Assembly: GCF_013283665.1 (NCBI RefSeq)
Contig: NZ_JABEKU010000002.1
Coordinates: 2,198,060 to 2,262,059, forward strand
DNA length: 64,000 bases
Source: Ensifer sesbaniae
Lineage (GTDB): Bacteria; Pseudomonadota; Alphaproteobacteria; Rhizobiales; Rhizobiaceae
Direction of reading: 5' to 3'
Shown piece by piece: positions 565 to 48,681 of this stretch; within the stretch, counting starts at the first letter, position 1; each line of letters opens with the position of its first letter. The notes beneath the pieces were generated by a model. That model searched no databases, was not told where the DNA came from, and was given only the letters and a program-made list of their open reading frames with translations. A program made the position numbers and the translations under genes.

Positions 565-589
565 GGAACTTAAATGCCGACCGCGCATT
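565..589 (+). promoter_or_regulatory. Candidate EcfG/RpoE2-type promoter of the sigma gene
   Basis: GGAAC at 565-569, 18 bases, then TT at 588-589, about 40 bases before the sigma factor ATG at 630. Autoregulation of ecfG-type genes from such promoters is known in alphaproteobacteria. Confidence 0.65.
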
Positions 590-629: not shown

Positions 630-1148
630 ATGCAGTTCCCCCCTGAGATGGAAGACCAAATTCAGCCGCTGGAGACTCAGGTCATTGACCTCATTCCGGC
701 ATTGCGGGCGTTTGCGCGCACCTTCGTCACCTCCAACTTCGAGGCGGACGATCTCCTGCAGGAAACCCTTTTCCGCGCGTTGCGGGGCATCGATGGCTTT
801 GAACCCGGCACAAATCTGAAGTCGTGGCTCTTCACCATCATGCACAATGCCTTCCGCACGCAGTACAAATTGCGGCGGCGTGAAGCGCCAGGCGTCGTCA
901 ATTGCGCCGAACTGCCGATACCAATGGCACCGCCACAGGAGTGGTGTGTGCTCAGCAGCGAATTGCGCACCGCGCTGGAAACGCTGGCGCCCGACCATCG
1001 GGAGGTCCTTGTCCTCGTCGCCGGCTATGGCCTGAGTTATAAGGAGGCGGCCGAGATCTGCGATTGCGCCGTTGGAACCATAAAGAGCAGATTGAGTCGA
1101 GCCCGCGATGAGCTCGCCTATCGCATGAACGGTGTGCCGGTAGGATGA
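630..1148 (+). CDS. ECF sigma factor, EcfG/RpoE2-like
   Basis: A 172-residue RNA polymerase sigma factor of the extracytoplasmic-function class. Region 2 spans about residues 18-80 (FEADDLLQETLFRAL, LKSWLFTIMHNAF) and region 4 about residues 115-165 with a helix-turn-helix (YKEAAEICDCAVGTIKSRL). The long acidic-poor leader upstream of ATG 630 is not supported; this ATG has AAGG nine bases upstream. Sequence style and context (a NepR-like gene and a sigma2-like receiver protein within 3 kb, and a GGAAC-N18-TT motif in its own promoter) point to the general-stress EcfG group rather than FecI or RpoE types. It may be a paralogue of a chromosomal rpoE2. Confidence 0.85.
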   Translation: MQFPPEMEDQIQPLETQVIDLIPALRAFARTFVTSNFEADDLLQETLFRALRGIDGFEPGTNLKSWLFTIMHNAFRTQYKLRRREAPGVVNCAELPIPMAPPQEWCVLSSELRTALETLAPDHREVLVLVAGYGLSYKEAAEICDCAVGTIKSRLSRARDELAYRMNGVPVG

Positions 1149-2883: not shown

Positions 2884-3498
2884 TCAGTTTGGCCCATACG
2901 GGCTTTCGCCATGAATGATCATCATCAACTCGTGCAGCCATGCATCGAGCGGCTGTGTTCTCTGCCTCGTAGGGGCCAGGGCAATCGCACGTTCGAGCGT
3001 GCGCTCGACGAGGAAGTCCGCAGCCGTGACGCTCGACGTCAACACCCTGGCCCTGAGACGCAGGCCGGGAATGAGATCCGTAACGGGTTGATCGGGCAGG
3101 CTTCCGCAGATCGGGGCAAGCGTTGATAAATTCTGAAGATACTGCTCGAAAACCGCGCTCACCAAGTCTGACGAGCTAGTGCATTTGCTAAGGCGCGCGG
3201 CCGAGCTGAATCTTTCCGGAACGCTCAAATCATCGTAGCCGCTGAAGAAGATCAATGGCACCGATCGGCGCGCAAGCTCGTCCGCCACGGGAAAAACCAA
3301 CTCGCCATTGAGGTTGATGTCGAGGACAGCAACCTGAATATCGTCAGCCTTCGAAAGCCGCTTCAGGGCATCTTGCACCGTTGGGGTGGGGCCAATGATG
3401 GTCGCGCCGGCCCGTTCGAGCCATAGGGCGATGTCATTCGCGACATAGAACTCATCCTCTGCCACCAGCACCCGCAATTGCTGCAGGTCCAGCATCAT
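2884..3498 (-). CDS. Receiver domain fused to a sigma2-like domain (reversed PhyR layout)
   Basis: A 204-residue protein. Residues 8-120 form a receiver domain: acidic pair E14/D15, phosphoacceptor D60 (VAVLDINLNG), S86, and K105 (LSKC). Residues 139-195 match region 2 of the sigma factor at 630-1148 in pattern (DLIPGLRLRAR against DLIPALRAFAR; AD-L---TL-RA; a WL--LM motif). PhyR, the anti-anti-sigma factor of this pathway, has a sigma-like domain first and the receiver second; here the order is reversed and the sigma4 part is absent. The gene starts nine bases after the NepR-like stop, so the two are co-transcribed. I infer it binds or competes for the NepR-like protein. Confidence 0.75.
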   Translation of the reverse strand: MMLDLQQLRVLVAEDEFYVANDIALWLERAGATIIGPTPTVQDALKRLSKADDIQVAVLDINLNGELVFPVADELARRSVPLIFFSGYDDLSVPERFSSAARLSKCTSSSDLVSAVFEQYLQNLSTLAPICGSLPDQPVTDLIPGLRLRARVLTSSVTAADFLVERTLERAIALAPTRQRTQPLDAWLHELMMIIHGESPYGPN

Positions 3499-3507
3499 TT
3501 TCCGTCC

Positions 3508-3738
3508 TCAATCCTTCTGCCCATCTAAGTTCTTCTGGCGCTGTGCGCGGGCGGTCGCCGATGCTGCGGCTCGCCGGGATTCGAGAGCCCTCTGAAGCCT
3601 GTTGGCGAGTATGAGCAACCGATCCGGGATATCATCGACGAGCCCTGCATCCGGCTCGACCGCGCGAGGAGCCGAATTGTCCATCAACAAGGTCTCGTTT
3701 TCATTACCTGTTTTCTTGCCCGAAGCCATCGCTTCCAC
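3508..3738 (-). CDS. NepR-like anti-sigma factor
   Basis: A 76-residue protein with the short NepR-type core at residues 34-55 (VDDIPDRLLILANRLQRAL) flanked by disordered charged ends, as in NepR proteins. NepR sequesters EcfG sigma factors and is released by phosphorylated PhyR. It is the first gene of a pair with the receiver-sigma2 protein, and the EcfG-like sigma gene is 2.4 kb away. I found no GGAAC-type motif directly upstream. Translation could also begin at the second Met (3729). The family call rests on a short motif plus context. Confidence 0.72.
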   Translation of the reverse strand: MEAMASGKKTGNENETLLMDNSAPRAVEPDAGLVDDIPDRLLILANRLQRALESRRAAASATARAQRQKNLDGQKD

Positions 3739-3862
3739 CTACTCGTCTATTACAGTGCACTCTCGGGCATGCTCGCCGCCGATAGCAGCAATACCGTAAG
3801 GATACGCCCCGCGGGAGCAGAAGCCAAGTTTTCCGGGTCCGGGGCGGCGGTCGCATTGTATC

Positions 3863-3887
3863 GGAACGAACGACGGCGCTGTCGGTT
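3863..3887 (+). promoter_or_regulatory. Candidate EcfG/RpoE2-type promoter
   Basis: GGAAC at 3863-3867, 18 bases, TT at 3886-3887. The following ATG codons are at 3896 and 3899, so a transcript from here would have almost no leader. Confidence 0.45.
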
Positions 3888-3895
3888 TGGTCCCC

Positions 3896-4255
3896 ATGAT
3901 GTTCCCGAACCGGATCAACAACGCTGGCATCTCTGGTCGAGCGAGATCAGCCGCTATCTCTGCGAAAAGCGCCCTGTTGGCTGTGCTCGCCATTATACCG
4001 ACTGCCCATCCGACATTCCCCCAGACTGCCGATAAAGTTCCATCCGCCGATTGCCAAACCGGTCCCGAAACGCCTGAGAACGAGCAGTACGAGGACTGGA
4101 CGCAGAAGCTCGAGAGATGCGCCGGCGTTCTTCTGCCGCCCAAGACAGGTGACCACGAACTGGTGGAACCGGCTCCGCCCACCGGGAACACACGCATTAT
4201 CAAGCCCCACGAACTACCGCCCGATGAAGGCGCCGGTGACGGCATTGAGCAATGA
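3896..4255 (+). CDS. Putative exported small protein
   Basis: A 119-residue protein. The N-terminus has a basic stretch and a hydrophobic segment (KSALLAVLAIIPTAHPTF) that looks like a signal peptide. The mature part contains two cysteines (DCQTGPETP, LERCAGVLLPP) and ends in a proline-rich acidic tail. The frame opens with TTG at 3887, but ATG 3896 or 3899 are more likely starts. No ribosome site is visible, and a candidate stress promoter ends only nine bases upstream, so the mRNA may be leaderless. The function is unknown. Confidence 0.6.
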   Translation: MMFPNRINNAGISGRARSAAISAKSALLAVLAIIPTAHPTFPQTADKVPSADCQTGPETPENEQYEDWTQKLERCAGVLLPPKTGDHELVEPAPPTGNTRIIKPHELPPDEGAGDGIEQ

Positions 4256-4414
4256 GCCGCCGAAGCTCTCCGGCGCCGCGCATCCTTCAAGACACGAGAA
4301 GGTCGCCGTAGCATTTTGAATTGCTGCTATTTTTGCCCCTCGGCCGGCGAAGATTAAGGGAAATATGCAGTGGGCTTGCCTTCCGGCGCAGCGGTCGAAT
4401 GGTTGATTCAAGCT

Positions 4415-4798
4415 CTATCGACTGACGCTGGTAGTCGCGTGCTCTACAGACGCTTTTGCGCTGAAGACTTGGCGCCGGCCTTCGGTGATTTCTAATTCGC
4501 GGATGTCCGATCTCGCCGCATCGAGTTTTGCTTCGACCTCAAGCAATCTCTTGCGCATGGTGATGACCGCAGCCGAAACCACGAGAATATCGGCGATCAC
4601 GACAATGACTGCGCCGACAACACCTTCAACGCCAAACAGGATCAATATGACAGCGCCGACAAATATCGTAACGGCGCCGCATCGCAGGTTGCGGCCGCCT
4701 CTCAGGAAGAGCACGGCGGGAAAGGTCGCCAGCAGGACCGTTACGATCCCGGACTTGTCCGCAATGCTCTGCGAAGCGAATTCGATGAGTGTATCCAT
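4415..4798 (-). CDS. Small membrane protein with C-terminal coiled coil
   Basis: A 127-residue protein with two or three hydrophobic segments in residues 17-82 (GIVTVLLATFPAVLFL; AVTIFVGAVILILFGVEGVVG; AVIVVIADILVVSAAVI), followed by a charged heptad-like helix (RLLEVEAKLDAARSDIRELEI). It has no known domain. It stands alone, is convergent with the exported protein gene, and is divergent from the EPS locus. No stress-type promoter was found upstream. Confidence 0.65.
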   Translation of the reverse strand: MDTLIEFASQSIADKSGIVTVLLATFPAVLFLRGGRNLRCGAVTIFVGAVILILFGVEGVVGAVIVVIADILVVSAAVITMRKRLLEVEAKLDAARSDIRELEITEGRRQVFSAKASVEHATTSVSR

Positions 4799-5051: not shown

Positions 5052-5361
5052 TCGCCTTTTGGCGATGCAGTTGGCCAAAAGTACTCGTCCTTTCATCCCT
5101 TGCTTCAGCTTACTACGCACTAGTGCTGATGGCACTGATATCAGCGAACCTGATATATTTTTCGGTGGCCGGCAGTTTGATCGGTCGACGGCGGAGCAGG
5201 ATGACTTGGGCGTACGGCGAACCGGTGTGCGAATGCCGGGACTGCTGCGCGTGAGTTGCGCCTAACCATTAGCTCCTCAAACGTTTGTTTTACTGCAGGC
5301 CCCTCCGCTGGTGCAGCACCGGGAGAGCATAATCATTGTAGATATTTGAAGGGATTTGACG
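5052..5361. other. Spacer upstream of the EPS locus
   Basis: No supported gene apart from the doubtful ORF to the left. The stretch presumably carries the promoter of the plus-strand EPS genes. I cannot assign -35/-10 elements with confidence. Confidence 0.4.
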
Positions 5362-7452
5362 ATGCAGGGCTCGACCGACCGCGTGATTGTGACACCGGAA
5401 CCGGCGCTGCTCGACGTGAGGGAGATTATCGATTTTCTTTTCCGGCGCTGGAAGTTCATATCGTGCACCGCCGTCTTAACGCTCGGAGCTTTCGTCGGAA
5501 TCTCGCTCGTCGTTACTCCGTCCTATACAGCGATCTCCAGGATTCTGCTCGACGCTCCCAAGGACTATATCCTCTCTCAGGACGCCGGGCCCGAACTGCG
5601 CGACAACTCCACATTCATCGAAAGCGAAATCGCCGTCCTGACGTCCGCCTCGCTGCTTCAGAAGGTTGTCGAAAGCGAGGGGTTGGCGCCAGACCCTGCG
5701 CTTGAGGCCGGGGCGCTGACGTGGCTCGAGGGCGCGCTCGAAGTCTCGCGCGTCGGACTGGCCGATGTCATCGAGCTCAACGTAACCTCGAATGACCCCG
5801 AACAGGCGGCACGCCTCGCCAATGCGCTTGCCCAGGTTTACGTGCAAGACCGCATCGAGTCTCGTTACGAGGGGGCCAAGAAGGCTTCCACCTGGTTGAG
5901 CGAACGCGCCGGAATTCTGCGCGAAGAACTGAGCCGCTCGGAAAACGCCGTGCAAAAGTTCCGCGCCGAGCATAATCTTCTGGCGACGCAGTCCGGGAGC
6001 CTGACCGGGCAGCAATTGTCCGAATTGAACATAGCGCTCATCAACGCCCGTGCTGAACTGGCGACGAAACGCTCTAAGTTCGAGCAGGCGGAGAAGGTCG
6101 TAAAGTCGGGTGGCGATGCCCAGACCCTGCCCGACGTGCTGCAGTCCGATGTCGTCAGCGCGCTGCGCACCCAGGCTGGAGTCGTGACGCGCAAGGAAGC
6201 AGATCTGCGGCTACGTTACGGCGACCAGCATCCTGAGGTGATGACGGTCCAGGCGGAGCACCGCGACATCGAGCAGCAGATCGCCGCCGAGATACAGCGG
6301 CTCGTCGGCAACCTCAGAAACGAGGTGGAAGCCGCCGAAGCGCGCGAAGCTGCGCTGTCTCGGGCACTTGCGTCGGTATCCGGTCAGTCGGCGGTCGAGG
6401 ATCAGGTCGGCGTTCAGTTGCGCGATCTGGAGCGGATTGCGGCCGCGAACAAGGAACTGTTCCAGACATTCCTGTCGCGCGCCAAGATCGCCGAGGAGAA
6501 ATCGACACTGCTGAGCAGCGGTGTGCGCGTTATTACACGCGCCGGCGTCCCGCTCGAGCCAAGCTTCCCGAATAGACCGCTTTTTGCGGCCGTGGGCCTG
6601 GTGGTCGGTGCTGCCTTGGGCGGAGCCGGCGCGCTTGTCCGCGAGCTGTTTTCATCCGGCTTCATGGCAAGGCGCCAGGTGGAAGAAGCACTGGCCGTTC
6701 CAGTTCTCGCCTCCCTGCCGCGTATGACGGAATGGACGCGGACAAAATCGCGCGTGCAGCCGGTGGCGTATCTGGAGCACCGCCCCCTGTCGCGCTACAG
6801 CGAGGCCGTCAGAAGGTTGCGCCTGGGTCTCGGCGGCATACCCGACACGGATCATTCGCCATCAATCACCCTCGTTACCTCGGCGATGCCGGGCGAAGGC
6901 AAGACGACGCTTGCACTCAGCCTTGCTTGCTCTGCCGCCGCAGATGGGGAGCGCGCGCTGGTAATCGATGCCGATCTCAGGGTTTCGGCCACCACCGCCT
7001 TCTTTGGCATGACCGAGAATGTCGGACTGGTCGACCTTCTGACACTCCCGATCGATCCTGCCAAGGCAATCCACCTGGACGGGCGCTCGGGCATTCACGT
7101 TCTGCCGGCCGGCGCAAAGACCTTGAACCCCCCCGCTCTCCTTGCCTCGGCACGGATGCGCTCCCTCATCAACGAGTTCCGGGCAAGCTATGACACGGTG
7201 ATCATCGATGCGCCGCCGGTCGGCCCGGTGGCAGATGCCTCCATTCTCGCCGGACACGCCGACAAGGTGGTGTTCGTCGTGAAGTGGCGTGACACGTCCC
7301 GCGAAGCAGTGGCGGAAGGCATTCGATACCTCGGCGACAGATCCAAGCTCGCTGGGATTGCCCTGACGATGGTCGATGGGCCGAAATTGCCCAGATATGG
7401 ACGCTACGCGTCTCTTGATGGCAATGGATATGACGGCCGCTACCTGAATTGA
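5362..7452 (+). CDS. Polysaccharide co-polymerase with BY-kinase domain (ExoP/Wzc-like)
   Basis: A 696-residue inner-membrane protein that sets EPS chain length and export. An N-terminal Wzz domain has a membrane segment near residues 33-53. A long periplasmic coiled coil follows (about 160-375), then a second membrane segment near 406-426. The cytoplasmic tyrosine kinase has Walker A (PGEGKTTLAL, about 507), Walker A' (LVIDADLR, about 533) and Walker B (VIIDAPP, about 612). The last 19 residues hold four tyrosines, the usual autophosphorylation cluster. ATG 5362 has GAAGGG eight bases upstream; the frame opens at a TTG six bases earlier. It is the first gene of the locus. Confidence 0.93.
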   Translation: MQGSTDRVIVTPEPALLDVREIIDFLFRRWKFISCTAVLTLGAFVGISLVVTPSYTAISRILLDAPKDYILSQDAGPELRDNSTFIESEIAVLTSASLLQKVVESEGLAPDPALEAGALTWLEGALEVSRVGLADVIELNVTSNDPEQAARLANALAQVYVQDRIESRYEGAKKASTWLSERAGILREELSRSENAVQKFRAEHNLLATQSGSLTGQQLSELNIALINARAELATKRSKFEQAEKVVKSGGDAQTLPDVLQSDVVSALRTQAGVVTRKEADLRLRYGDQHPEVMTVQAEHRDIEQQIAAEIQRLVGNLRNEVEAAEAREAALSRALASVSGQSAVEDQVGVQLRDLERIAAANKELFQTFLSRAKIAEEKSTLLSSGVRVITRAGVPLEPSFPNRPLFAAVGLVVGAALGGAGALVRELFSSGFMARRQVEEALAVPVLASLPRMTEWTRTKSRVQPVAYLEHRPLSRYSEAVRRLRLGLGGIPDTDHSPSITLVTSAMPGEGKTTLALSLACSAAADGERALVIDADLRVSATTAFFGMTENVGLVDLLTLPIDPAKAIHLDGRSGIHVLPAGAKTLNPPALLASARMRSLINEFRASYDTVIIDAPPVGPVADASILAGHADKVVFVVKWRDTSREAVAEGIRYLGDRSKLAGIALTMVDGPKLPRYGRYASLDGNGYDGRYLN

Positions 7453-7615
7453 TGAGCAACCTCGCTCGTTCCTTCGAGGAAAGGAAGAGATTCATCTTTA
7501 ATAAATATAGTCAATACATTGATAACACATAACGGAAATCAATAAATCAAAGCAACAAATAGACATATACTGAATAAAAATCGAACAATTAAAAAACAGG
7601 AATGGAGGTGGAGAG
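7453..7615. promoter_or_regulatory. AT-rich leader before the NusG-like gene
   Basis: 163 bases that are strikingly AT-rich (runs such as taataaatatag and gaacaattaaaaaacag) in otherwise GC-rich DNA. This suggests a promoter or regulatory leader for the antiterminator gene. A short hairpin (ttcctt/aaggaa) follows the upstream stop codon. Confidence 0.4.
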
Positions 7616-8179
7616 ATGCTGAGTGACAACTCACACGATGGTTCACGTTCGGTTCCACTTGACGATGCTCGCGATGCTCAGCCCGAACGCTGGTACGTGG
7701 TGCAGACACATCAACACTGTGAGACCCTGGCTGAAAAGCATCTGACTTCACAAAACTTGCGGACCTACCTGCCGAAACGGCGCCGAACCGTTCGCCATGC
7801 GCGCAGCATAAAGACTGTGTGCGGCGCCTATTTCGATGGCTACCTTTTCGTCTCACTGGATATTCAACGGCAGAGATGGTCGCCGATCAATTCGACCGTC
7901 GGCGTGCGCAAGCTCGTGATGAGCGACCGCAAGCCGATACCGGTCCCTTACGGAATCGTCGAAGCCTTGATCTTGGCGACCGACGAAGCGGGCTTCCTTC
8001 ACCCCAAGGATATGTTCCAAGCGGGAAAAACAATTAAAGTAGAGAGCGGCCCCTTTGCAGATCAACTTGGCGTCCTTGACTACGTCGGGCGCTCAGGAGC
8101 AGTCCGCGTCTTGATGGATATTATGAATAGGGCCGTTCCAATTTATATAGACAGAGACAAGTGCTTGGTGATAAATTAA
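7616..8179 (+). CDS. NusG/RfaH-like transcription antiterminator
   Basis: A 187-residue protein. The N-terminal NGN domain (residues 25-125) begins with the characteristic RWYVVQTHQHCETLAEKHL and contains CGAYFDGYLFVSLD. The C-terminus has a KOW-like segment (VESGPFADQLGVLDYV). Specialised NusG paralogues such as RfaH, LoaP and UpxY let polymerase read through long polysaccharide operons. Its location as the second gene of this EPS locus fits that role. The start has GGAGG-type purines upstream. The target leader element has not been identified. Confidence 0.85.
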   Translation: MLSDNSHDGSRSVPLDDARDAQPERWYVVQTHQHCETLAEKHLTSQNLRTYLPKRRRTVRHARSIKTVCGAYFDGYLFVSLDIQRQRWSPINSTVGVRKLVMSDRKPIPVPYGIVEALILATDEAGFLHPKDMFQAGKTIKVESGPFADQLGVLDYVGRSGAVRVLMDIMNRAVPIYIDRDKCLVIN

Positions 8180-47604: not shown

Positions 47605-48681
47605 CTATGCCCCATCGGTCGGGCGCGGCTCGATGGCGGTCGGCTCCAGGAATCGATCCGCCGGTCCCGCCAATCGCCACCGGAGCATTCCGTCGCCGCA
47701 GACAATGTCCACGGTCGCGCTCAGCGCTTGCGCAACGCTGCGCCTCAGCACAACTGCGCCGAAACCGGCTTGCGGAAAGCTCGGGCTTTTGCTTCCCGGT
47801 GCGAGCCGCTCTTCCCATGTGATCGAGAAGCCTCGGATCGGCCCCCGTTCGGCGAGCGTCCATTGCACGGAAATCGCTCCGGTTCGCTCTTTCAGGACTC
47901 CATTGTGCAGCGAATTCAGTGCCAACTCGTGGACCGCCATGCCGAGGTTCTCGATTGCGATTGGCGCCAATGCAAGGGAGGGCCCGGCGAGTTCACAGGT
48001 ATCGCCCGGATGAAACGGCGCCATTTGCGTCTCGACGAGACCACCGAGATCGACCCCCTTCCAGTCGGCCGACGCAATCAGGTCGTGGGAGGCTGACAGT
48101 GCCCAGATACGCTCCTCGAGCCGTTTTTGGAACGTTGCTGCATTGGATGCCTCACTGCCGCTCTGCCTGATCATCGCAAGGATGATGGCGTACTGGTTGC
48201 GAACCCGGTGGTTCACCTCACGCAGGAGAAGGCGAATGCGCCGTTCCTTCTCTTTGTTCGATGTAATGTCGCGGGCAGCCACCGACGCACCCACGATCTT
48301 GCCCACGCCGTTTCGAATGGGCGAGACTGTCAGCGACACGGGAACATAGCTTCCGTCCTTTCGCTGCCGTACCGTCTCGAACGGTTCGATCCGCTCTCCT
48401 CGTCCCACGCGATCGAGCAGCCTCCACTCCTCGTCGTGCAGATGCGGCGGGATGATGGTGAGGATCGATTGCTCCATCATCTCTTCGGCCATGTACCCGA
48501 ACAGCCGCTCCGCGGCACCGTTCCAGGTGCGCACAGTGCCGTCCAGATCTTTGCTGATGATCGCATCGAAAGACGATTCCACGATCGCAGCCAACCTGGC
48601 CCGAAGGACATCGTTGGCGACTGCGTCCTCATCGAACGGGTGTGACGGCATCGGATTGCTCGCTTCCGACCGGGCATTCAT
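47605..48681 (-). CDS. PAS-containing HWE-family sensor histidine kinase
   Basis: A 358-residue soluble kinase. The PAS domain (about residues 28-145) begins AAIVESSFDAIISKDLDG. The HWE-type phosphoacceptor motif is LLREVNHRVRNQYAII (His about 156), the N-box is MAVHELALNSLHNG, and the diagnostic W-E is in FSITWEERL. There is no membrane segment. HWE kinases often phosphorylate PhyR in the general stress response, so this is a candidate input for the receiver-sigma2 protein at 2884-3498. ATG 48651, with GGAAG upstream, is an alternative start. Confidence 0.88.
   Translation of the reverse strand: MNARSEASNPMPSHPFDEDAVANDVLRARLAAIVESSFDAIISKDLDGTVRTWNGAAERLFGYMAEEMMEQSILTIIPPHLHDEEWRLLDRVGRGERIEPFETVRQRKDGSYVPVSLTVSPIRNGVGKIVGASVAARDITSNKEKERRIRLLLREVNHRVRNQYAIILAMIRQSGSEASNAATFQKRLEERIWALSASHDLIASADWKGVDLGGLVETQMAPFHPGDTCELAGPSLALAPIAIENLGMAVHELALNSLHNGVLKERTGAISVQWTLAERGPIRGFSITWEERLAPGSKSPSFPQAGFGAVVLRRSVAQALSATVDIVCGDGMLRWRLAGPADRFLEPTAIEPRPTDGA

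Follow-up and report, generated by a model that had tools for sequence, protein, structure and literature searches.

A receiver-first sigma2 protein beside a NepR-like gene in Ensifer sesbaniae: candidate partner switch for an RpoE5-type sigma factor

A response regulator with its receiver domain in front of a sigma region-2 domain was found in the window, the whole 64,000-nucleotide stretch of Ensifer sesbaniae DNA that was analysed, together with a small NepR-like gene and an ECF sigma factor of the RpoE5 type. We read this set, with a probability of roughly 0.64, as a three-part partner switch for the RpoE5-type ECF15 sigma factor, composed of the sigma factor, the mini NepR and a separately assembled, receiver-first sigma mimic; the locus suggests that a known bacterial stress switch exists in a second form that was assembled separately. 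In the open-access literature searched, a sigma2 protein with the receiver in front was nowhere described; an EcfG paralogue of Methylobacterium that consists of region sigma2 only is counted among sigma paralogues rather than response regulators in passages of PMC4814048.

The receiver-sigma2 gene and its neighbours

The receiver-sigma2 protein, our proposed anti-anti-sigma factor (sigma mimic), is encoded at 2884..3498 on the minus strand (204 aa, ATG start). Its receiver domain, of the single-domain-receiver type, occupies 3145..3477 (minus strand, about residues 8-118), and its sigma region-2 domain, with three helices, 2902..3087 (minus strand, about residues 138-199). Residues 141-192 matched Pfam PhyR_sigma2 (29.4 bits, E 8.5e-7, cut-off 27), and residues 10-100 matched Response_reg with 27.3 bits, just below the cut-off of 30.2. 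The positions of these domains bore out the order given in a sequence-only reading of this DNA, receiver first, then sigma2 only, without sigma4; region 2.4, the linker and sigma4 were all absent, the 204-aa protein stopping soon after the third sigma2 helix. The intact phosphoacceptor aspartate of that reading, D60 (codon 3319..3321, minus strand), was likewise confirmed, with E14/D15, S86 and K105 also in place. Across the 21 aligned receiver-sigma2 sequences E14, D15, D60 and K105 were invariant, as were L-V-E and A of the sigma2 part, and 18 of the 21, the window included, matched PhyR_sigma2 at E <= 0.01. The protein is probably under phosphorylation control, as judged from these residues.

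The C-terminus, which had been aligned by eye with region 2 of the sigma factor encoded at 630-1148, proved similar to it over 54 residues (39%, E 4e-4 to 8e-4), and the PhyR_sigma2 match over the cut-off places the likeness above chance. A structure model of the C-terminal 74 residues consisted of three helices (pLDDT 77, pTM 0.64). A Foldseek search of the PDB with this model gave sigma factors or PhyR as its first 29 matches, three of them recognised by title and chain only, with a best E of 0.01 and none at <=0.001; they included RpoE of the B. quintana RpoE-NepR complex 5uxx (29% identity). Checked against sigma region 2 in these two ways, the C-terminus agreed with it both in the PhyR_sigma2 profile and in the fold, the Foldseek matches having E >= 0.01. 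The full-length model, made with 3 sequences, was poor (pLDDT 50).

The NepR-like mini gene (3508..3738, minus strand), the proposed anti-sigma factor, precedes the receiver-sigma2 gene, which has the same orientation, with a gap of 9 bp; as comparison with homologues indicates, the mini gene probably starts at the ATG at 3729. The sequence-only reading had placed a NepR-like gene here, and a relation to NepR was recovered at the level of the family profile; from the 9-bp gap, co-transcription of the two genes is a fair inference. A conserved stretch resembling NepR helix 2, DIPDRLLILANRLQRALESRR, was recognised by eye at 3571..3633 (minus strand), and ahead of it no helix-1-like stretch was seen by eye in the window mini or in the other Ensifer minis. 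Both helix-like stretches were visible by eye, at NepR spacing, in the minis of Mesorhizobium, S. meliloti, Martelella and Shinella. What minis and NepR have in common is helix 2 of NepR, with the approximate pattern P-D/E-R-L-L-x-L-A-x-x-L-Q-x-A-L.

When 11,336 six-frame ORFs from the collected loci were searched with an HMM built on 14 mini proteins, the two canonical NepR of the genome ranked next after the HMM's own family (E 0.0024 and 0.21, noise from 2.6), and the own-family matches included three further small genes of receiver-sigma2 loci (E 1.4e-13, 7.7e-7 and 2.3e-5). In the reverse search, an HMM of 28 NepR sequences found the minis of Mesorhizobium (E 2.6e-4) and Martelella (6.1e-4), then that of S. 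meliloti (0.43); the window mini alone had E 1.5, beyond the start of the noise at 0.59. Compared profile to profile, minis and NepR matched with E 2.1e-5 and a probability of 77%. Pfam NepR had no match to the window gene at 3508-3738, but matched two places elsewhere in the genome; the relation of the window gene to NepR is one of remote homology through the family profile, without a Pfam match or the two-helix form.

The ECF sigma factor of the RpoE5 type (630..1148, plus strand), the proposed target of the switch, has regions 2 and 4 and lies 1.7 kb from the mimic gene. It was 76% identical over 92% to a sigma factor of S. meliloti pSymB at 1405360-1405833, which we infer from replicon and identity to be rpoE5, the record being unannotated there; by this match the window sigma is an RpoE5 orthologue, and its ECF15 label comes via the orthologue (part of PMC6180224). 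Upstream of the gene, GGAAC-N16-CATT was found at 565..589 (plus strand), in the form of the S. meliloti rpoE5 promoter as given in sections of PMC6180224. Since GGAAC-N15,18-CRTT was found 6 times against 4.3 expected, which is not significant by count alone, only the copy at 565..589 was singled out, for its place and form. In S. meliloti RpoE2 activates rpoE5, and overexpressed RpoE5 had one putative target (both from passages of PMC6180224). Two canonical PhyR, two NepR and RpoE2 are encoded elsewhere in the window's genome, and the sigma factor served is most likely the RpoE5 type, not the general-stress EcfG/RpoE2.

In S. meliloti, RpoE5 and an unannotated NepR-like ORF have been described (part of PMC6180224). 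The ORF belongs to the same mini family (L060, 5882-6088); in contrast with the window, the L060 stretch had no receiver-sigma2 gene. The window locus supplies concrete candidates for the two missing parts, the mini NepR and the receiver-sigma2 protein, whose genes are annotated in the named records examined as response regulator, response regulator receiver protein or hypothetical protein, or are unannotated.

Relation to PhyR and to sigma factors

A rearranged PhyR was set aside after the tree of receivers and the profile scores of the sigma2 domains. The sequence-only reading had taken the protein for a PhyR-like one with reversed domain order; its receiver-first, sigma2-only architecture and the adjoining NepR-like gene stood, while a PhyR with swapped domains was not supported, the receiver falling among single-domain and kinase-linked receivers and the sigma2 scores favouring the RpoE5 type over PhyR. 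NCBIfam PhyR gave 40 bits against a cut-off of 240, and the domain order was not that of PhyR, which has sigma2 and sigma4 N-terminal and the receiver C-terminal. In the PDB, the receiver was closest in sequence to 2lpm (58.5 bits) and SdrG 5ieb (47.4), with PhyR at 23. A quick tree, for which the other receivers had been chosen for their similarity to the window, placed those of receiver-sigma2 proteins among single-domain and kinase-linked receivers, and the PhyR receivers in a separate group (SH-aLRT 100). The receiver-sigma2 receivers grouped with single-domain receivers of stress networks, which we take to be the FAT GUY group. 2lpm, presumably an S. meliloti protein named two-component response regulator, and SdrG 5ieb resemble the window receiver in sequence and tree position, but are receivers alone, without sigma2. 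The receivers of receiver-sigma2 proteins were not one group (4 changes, at least 2 forced), so that more than one fusion, or an exchange of receivers, is possible.

The sigma2 domains were scored and counted for 21 of 22 proteins, L067 having no row. All 21 scored higher with the RpoE5-type profile than with PhyR, and 20 higher than with the RpoE2-type profile, with one tie. Profile E-values against receiver-sigma2 were 7.4e-17 for the RpoE5 type, 5.7e-12 for the RpoE2 type and 4.1e-8 for PhyR; the RpoE5-type profile itself stood as far from PhyR (E 5e-8) as did receiver-sigma2, and a narrow PhyR profile may partly account for the lower scores with it, the PhyR sequences coming from Rhizobiaceae loci only. 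In a sigma2 tree, for which, as for the residue count below, only alternate RpoE2-type and PhyR rows were kept, the receiver-sigma2 domains formed a single clade (support 97/93, bootstrap rough); the tree is unrooted and cannot place the clade nearer PhyR or the sigmas. Constraining receiver-sigma2 to join the RpoE5-type sigmas lowered lnL by 8.4 (p-AU 0.155), and this grouping was neither supported nor rejected. Assembly of receiver-sigma2 apart from PhyR is supported by the comparisons at hand, with the domain scores and the receiver tree in favour and the sigma2 tree undecisive; if built apart from PhyR, the protein would be an analogue of PhyR, not a rearranged one.

Three region-2.2 positions corresponding to D403, Q406 and E407 of sigma70, which we take to be contacts with the core polymerase, were compared. 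The 34 sigmas of the tree set carried D in 34/34, Q in 33/34 and E or D in 34/34. The receiver-sigma2 proteins (n = 21) retained D in none, Q in none (E in all) and E in one; the first position was R in 15/21 and F in the window. None of the three residues was retained in PhyR (n = 16), and PhyR and receiver-sigma2 have lost the same contacts via different replacements, mostly A, A, A in PhyR, and most often R, always E and often R in the mimics. The loss of core-binding residues typical of PhyR is shared by receiver-sigma2, the role of the residues being assumed from the sigma70 contacts, and by this signature the protein is a mimic, not a sigma. A mimic that lacks these three contacts as well as region 2.4 and sigma4 should form no holoenzyme.

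In Ensifer pairs, dN/dS of the sigma2 half was 0.15-0.23 (4/10 pairs; dS was saturated in 6), that of the receiver 0.04-0.09 (9/10 pairs) and that of the mini gene 0.16-0.50 (5/6 pairs); the values are rough, because dS was saturated in the remaining pairs and >1 in most. From these ratios the sigma2 half looks to be under selection.

Distribution and gene neighbourhoods

Matches running through the sigma2 part were found in at least 10 of 199 Rhizobiaceae genomes and at least 4 of 387 Alphaproteobacteria genomes, own genome included in both cases; these prevalence figures are lower bounds, and the class survey scored up to 8 candidates per genome. Across Alphaproteobacteria the genes lie partly on plasmids and partly on contigs of chromosome size, and the named carriers beyond Ensifer are Mesorhizobium, Martelella, Shinella, Paracoccus, Tistrella and Roseivivax. 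On a Rhizobium plasmid (L071) receiver and sigma2 are two overlapping ORFs, 3977-4366 and 4366-4566, either by a frameshift or as a natural split.

The surroundings of 29 receiver-sigma2 loci of Alphaproteobacteria were compared with those of 20 receiver-only control loci, whose receiver genes had no sigma2 match at E below 1. A mini NepR was present in 23/29 loci (21 within 1.5 kb) and in 0/20 controls, and an RpoE5-type sigma in 18/29 (10 within 1.5 kb) and in 2/20 controls; the counts within 1.5 kb are the fair ones, because the controls spanned 2.3-3.5 kb and the test loci 8.5-19 kb, and at this equal span the contrast for the sigma was modest (10/29 vs 2/20). The counts point to the mini as the tight partner, with the sigma nearby but less closely linked. 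Both partners were found in 16/29 loci and neither in 4 (L048, L049, L069 and L071); in the stretches examined, 6/29 had no mini and 11/29 no RpoE5-type sigma. The counted sigmas scored 125-144 bits with the RpoE5-type profile, and the genome's own RpoE2 scored 86. Ten of the 23 minis lay outside the HMM training set, seven of them near copies or from the same genus (L050, L156, L159-L163) and three divergent (L051, E 2e-5; L052, E 7e-7; L157, E 5e-9).

The 29 loci include ten from Ensifer or the same genus besides the window, and the close pairs L050+L062 and L156+L067. Repeats were left out, namely L001, L043 and L103 (window), L133 (L004), L007 (L046), L005 and L008 (L047), L009-L013, L016 and L024 (L048-L054), L138 (L063), L105 and L158 (L067), L135 (L070), L104 (L156), L106 (L157), and L134, L136, L137, L139 and L140 (L159-L163). 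Among 16 Ensifer genomes, receiver-sigma2 was present in 10 and an RpoE5-type sigma in 11, with both in 10 and neither in 5 (Fisher p 0.0014, kinship ignored); in the sole genome with the sigma alone, the sigma lies at position 760 of a contig.

The order mini then mimic was found in Ensifer and also in a genome of another family (G211, L157), and the order sigma, mini, mimic in L054. In Shinella (L062) the mini stands tail-to-tail with the sigma, and in P. yeei (L072) sigma and then mini are convergent with the mimic. An association that persists while the gene order changes speaks for a common function. In S. meliloti (L060) and in a second copy of genome G592 (L155), the mini adjoins an RpoE5-type sigma without a mimic in the stretch examined, and the S. 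meliloti matches listed aligned to the receiver part only. At L155, on contig 10 of G592, the second RpoE5-type sigma and its mini had no mimic within roughly 3.5 kb.

All six scanned large neighbours of receiver-sigma2 genes (L051, L052, L054, L065, L066 and L068), picked by length or annotation, were CheB-CheR-PAS-HWE kinases; further large neighbours lie at L048, L049, L067 and L069. No kinase was found beside the window locus, and the sole HWE match in the 64-kb window lies 44 kb off; the window's genome has 8 HWE matches, including this one. The match, in a 358-aa protein at 47605-48681 (minus strand) that looks by eye to contain a PAS domain, is a candidate unlinked kinase. At 5356-8179 of the window, a Wzc/ExoP-like polysaccharide protein is followed, by the look of the sequences, by a NusG/RfaH-like one. 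Ferritin-like, glycogen synthase, CBS, DUF2934, DUF4142 and catalase genes recurred as neighbours at L062, L063, L065, L070, L071, L072 and in the window at 1843-2589, and may be part of the regulon.

The proposed switch and its alternatives

In the proposed switch, the mini NepR (3508-3738) would hold the RpoE5-type sigma (630-1148) as long as no signal is present. Phosphorylation of D60 by a histidine kinase that probably belongs to the HWE class would free the C-terminal sigma2-like domain; the freed domain would bind the mini NepR, and the sigma would be released. The mini-mimic binding, the phosphorylation, its polarity and the choice of kinase are all putative, and removal of the mini NepR from the sigma by the phosphorylated mimic is proposed by analogy with PhyR (passages of PMC4598750, PMC8999054 and PMC12148442). 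The proposed switch resembles PhyR-NepR-EcfG (RsiB-RsiA-RpoE2) in that a receiver and a sigma-like domain are joined in one protein with a small NepR-related partner, in the ECF15 sigma, in the HWE kinases found nearby in some species and in the lost region-2.2 core residues. It differs in that the receiver of the window mimic is N-terminal, not C-terminal, in that sigma4 is absent, in that the receiver and sigma2 of the mimic are each closer to other families, and in that the Ensifer NepR-like partner has no helix 1 by eye and the sigma is of the RpoE5 type. A short helical anti-sigma segment, as in CnrY-CnrH and the NepR class, would be shared by the mini through its relation to NepR. Proteins of the NepR class embrace sigma2 and sigma4 together, as does CnrY-CnrH (both from parts of PMC4598750), whereas the mimic here, without sigma4, presents sigma2 only and so half of the known surface; either the mini binds via sigma2 alone or the receiver supplies a second surface.

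The direction of the switch could be the reverse, the unphosphorylated form holding the mini and phosphorylation releasing it and turning the sigma off, or binding could be independent of phosphorylation. We hold this to be unlikely: a PhyR paralogue of Rubellimicrobium thermophilum has NepR binding decoupled from phosphorylation (section of PMC12148442), and the receiver-first order might alter the way in which the receiver can shield sigma2, but phosphorylated canonical PhyR binds NepR (passage of PMC4598750), and D60, the acidic pocket and K105, present in 21/21, make phosphorylation likely, though they are silent on its direction. Quite unlikely is an extra general-stress input in which the protein would bind an NepR of the RsiA1/RsiA2 type and free RpoE2, in parallel to the two PhyR. 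The kinship of the mini family with canonical NepR would allow cross-binding; in S. meliloti, RpoE2 activates rpoE5 (part of PMC6180224), and there are the 11/29 loci without the RpoE5-type sigma in the stretch examined. In Ensifer, however, receiver-sigma2 occurred only where an RpoE5-type sigma was present, the mini was near in 21/29 loci, canonical PhyR, NepR and RpoE2 are encoded elsewhere in the window's genome, and sigma2 was closer to the RpoE5 type than to the RpoE2 type in 20/21, with one tie.

A sigma2 domain that still contacts RNA polymerase or DNA, making the protein an atypical transcription factor or a rival for core polymerase, would fit the domain's likeness to sigma region 2, seen in both its sequence and its modelled fold; the loss of the D, Q and E core positions in 21, 21 and 20 of 21 sequences, and a C-terminus that closely follows the third helix, with neither region 2.4 nor sigma4, make it very improbable. 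We give hardly any credence to a decaying fusion of receiver and sigma genes with a functionless sigma2 half. The halves are indeed separate overlapping ORFs on the Rhizobium plasmid, but the sigma2 dN/dS of 0.15-0.23 (the 4/10 pairs without saturation), the motifs conserved across genera and the single sigma2 clade (97/93, bootstrap rough) speak against decay.

A wider reading of the preferred three-part switch is offered tentatively and at somewhat less than even odds: sigma mimicry by response regulators would have arisen at least twice, the second version would serve the RpoE5-type ECF15 sigma, and the Ensifer form would be a one-helix/one-domain switch. Held with the same reserve, as part of this joint reading, is that the Ensifer switch is a reduced one, with a mimic without sigma4 and an anti-sigma without helix 1. 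If the mimic was separately assembled, it also shows which parts of PhyR such a switch needs, above all with regard to sigma4 and the receiver-last order.

Receiver-only regulators were observed near RpoE5-type sigmas at L022, L033 and L061, at the last of which the receiver gene adjoins the sigma in the same frame; these parts are possible relatives of the components before fusion. Just upstream of the P. yeei mimic (L072), short ORFs at 3741-3890 and 4028-4192 resemble pieces of another receiver gene.
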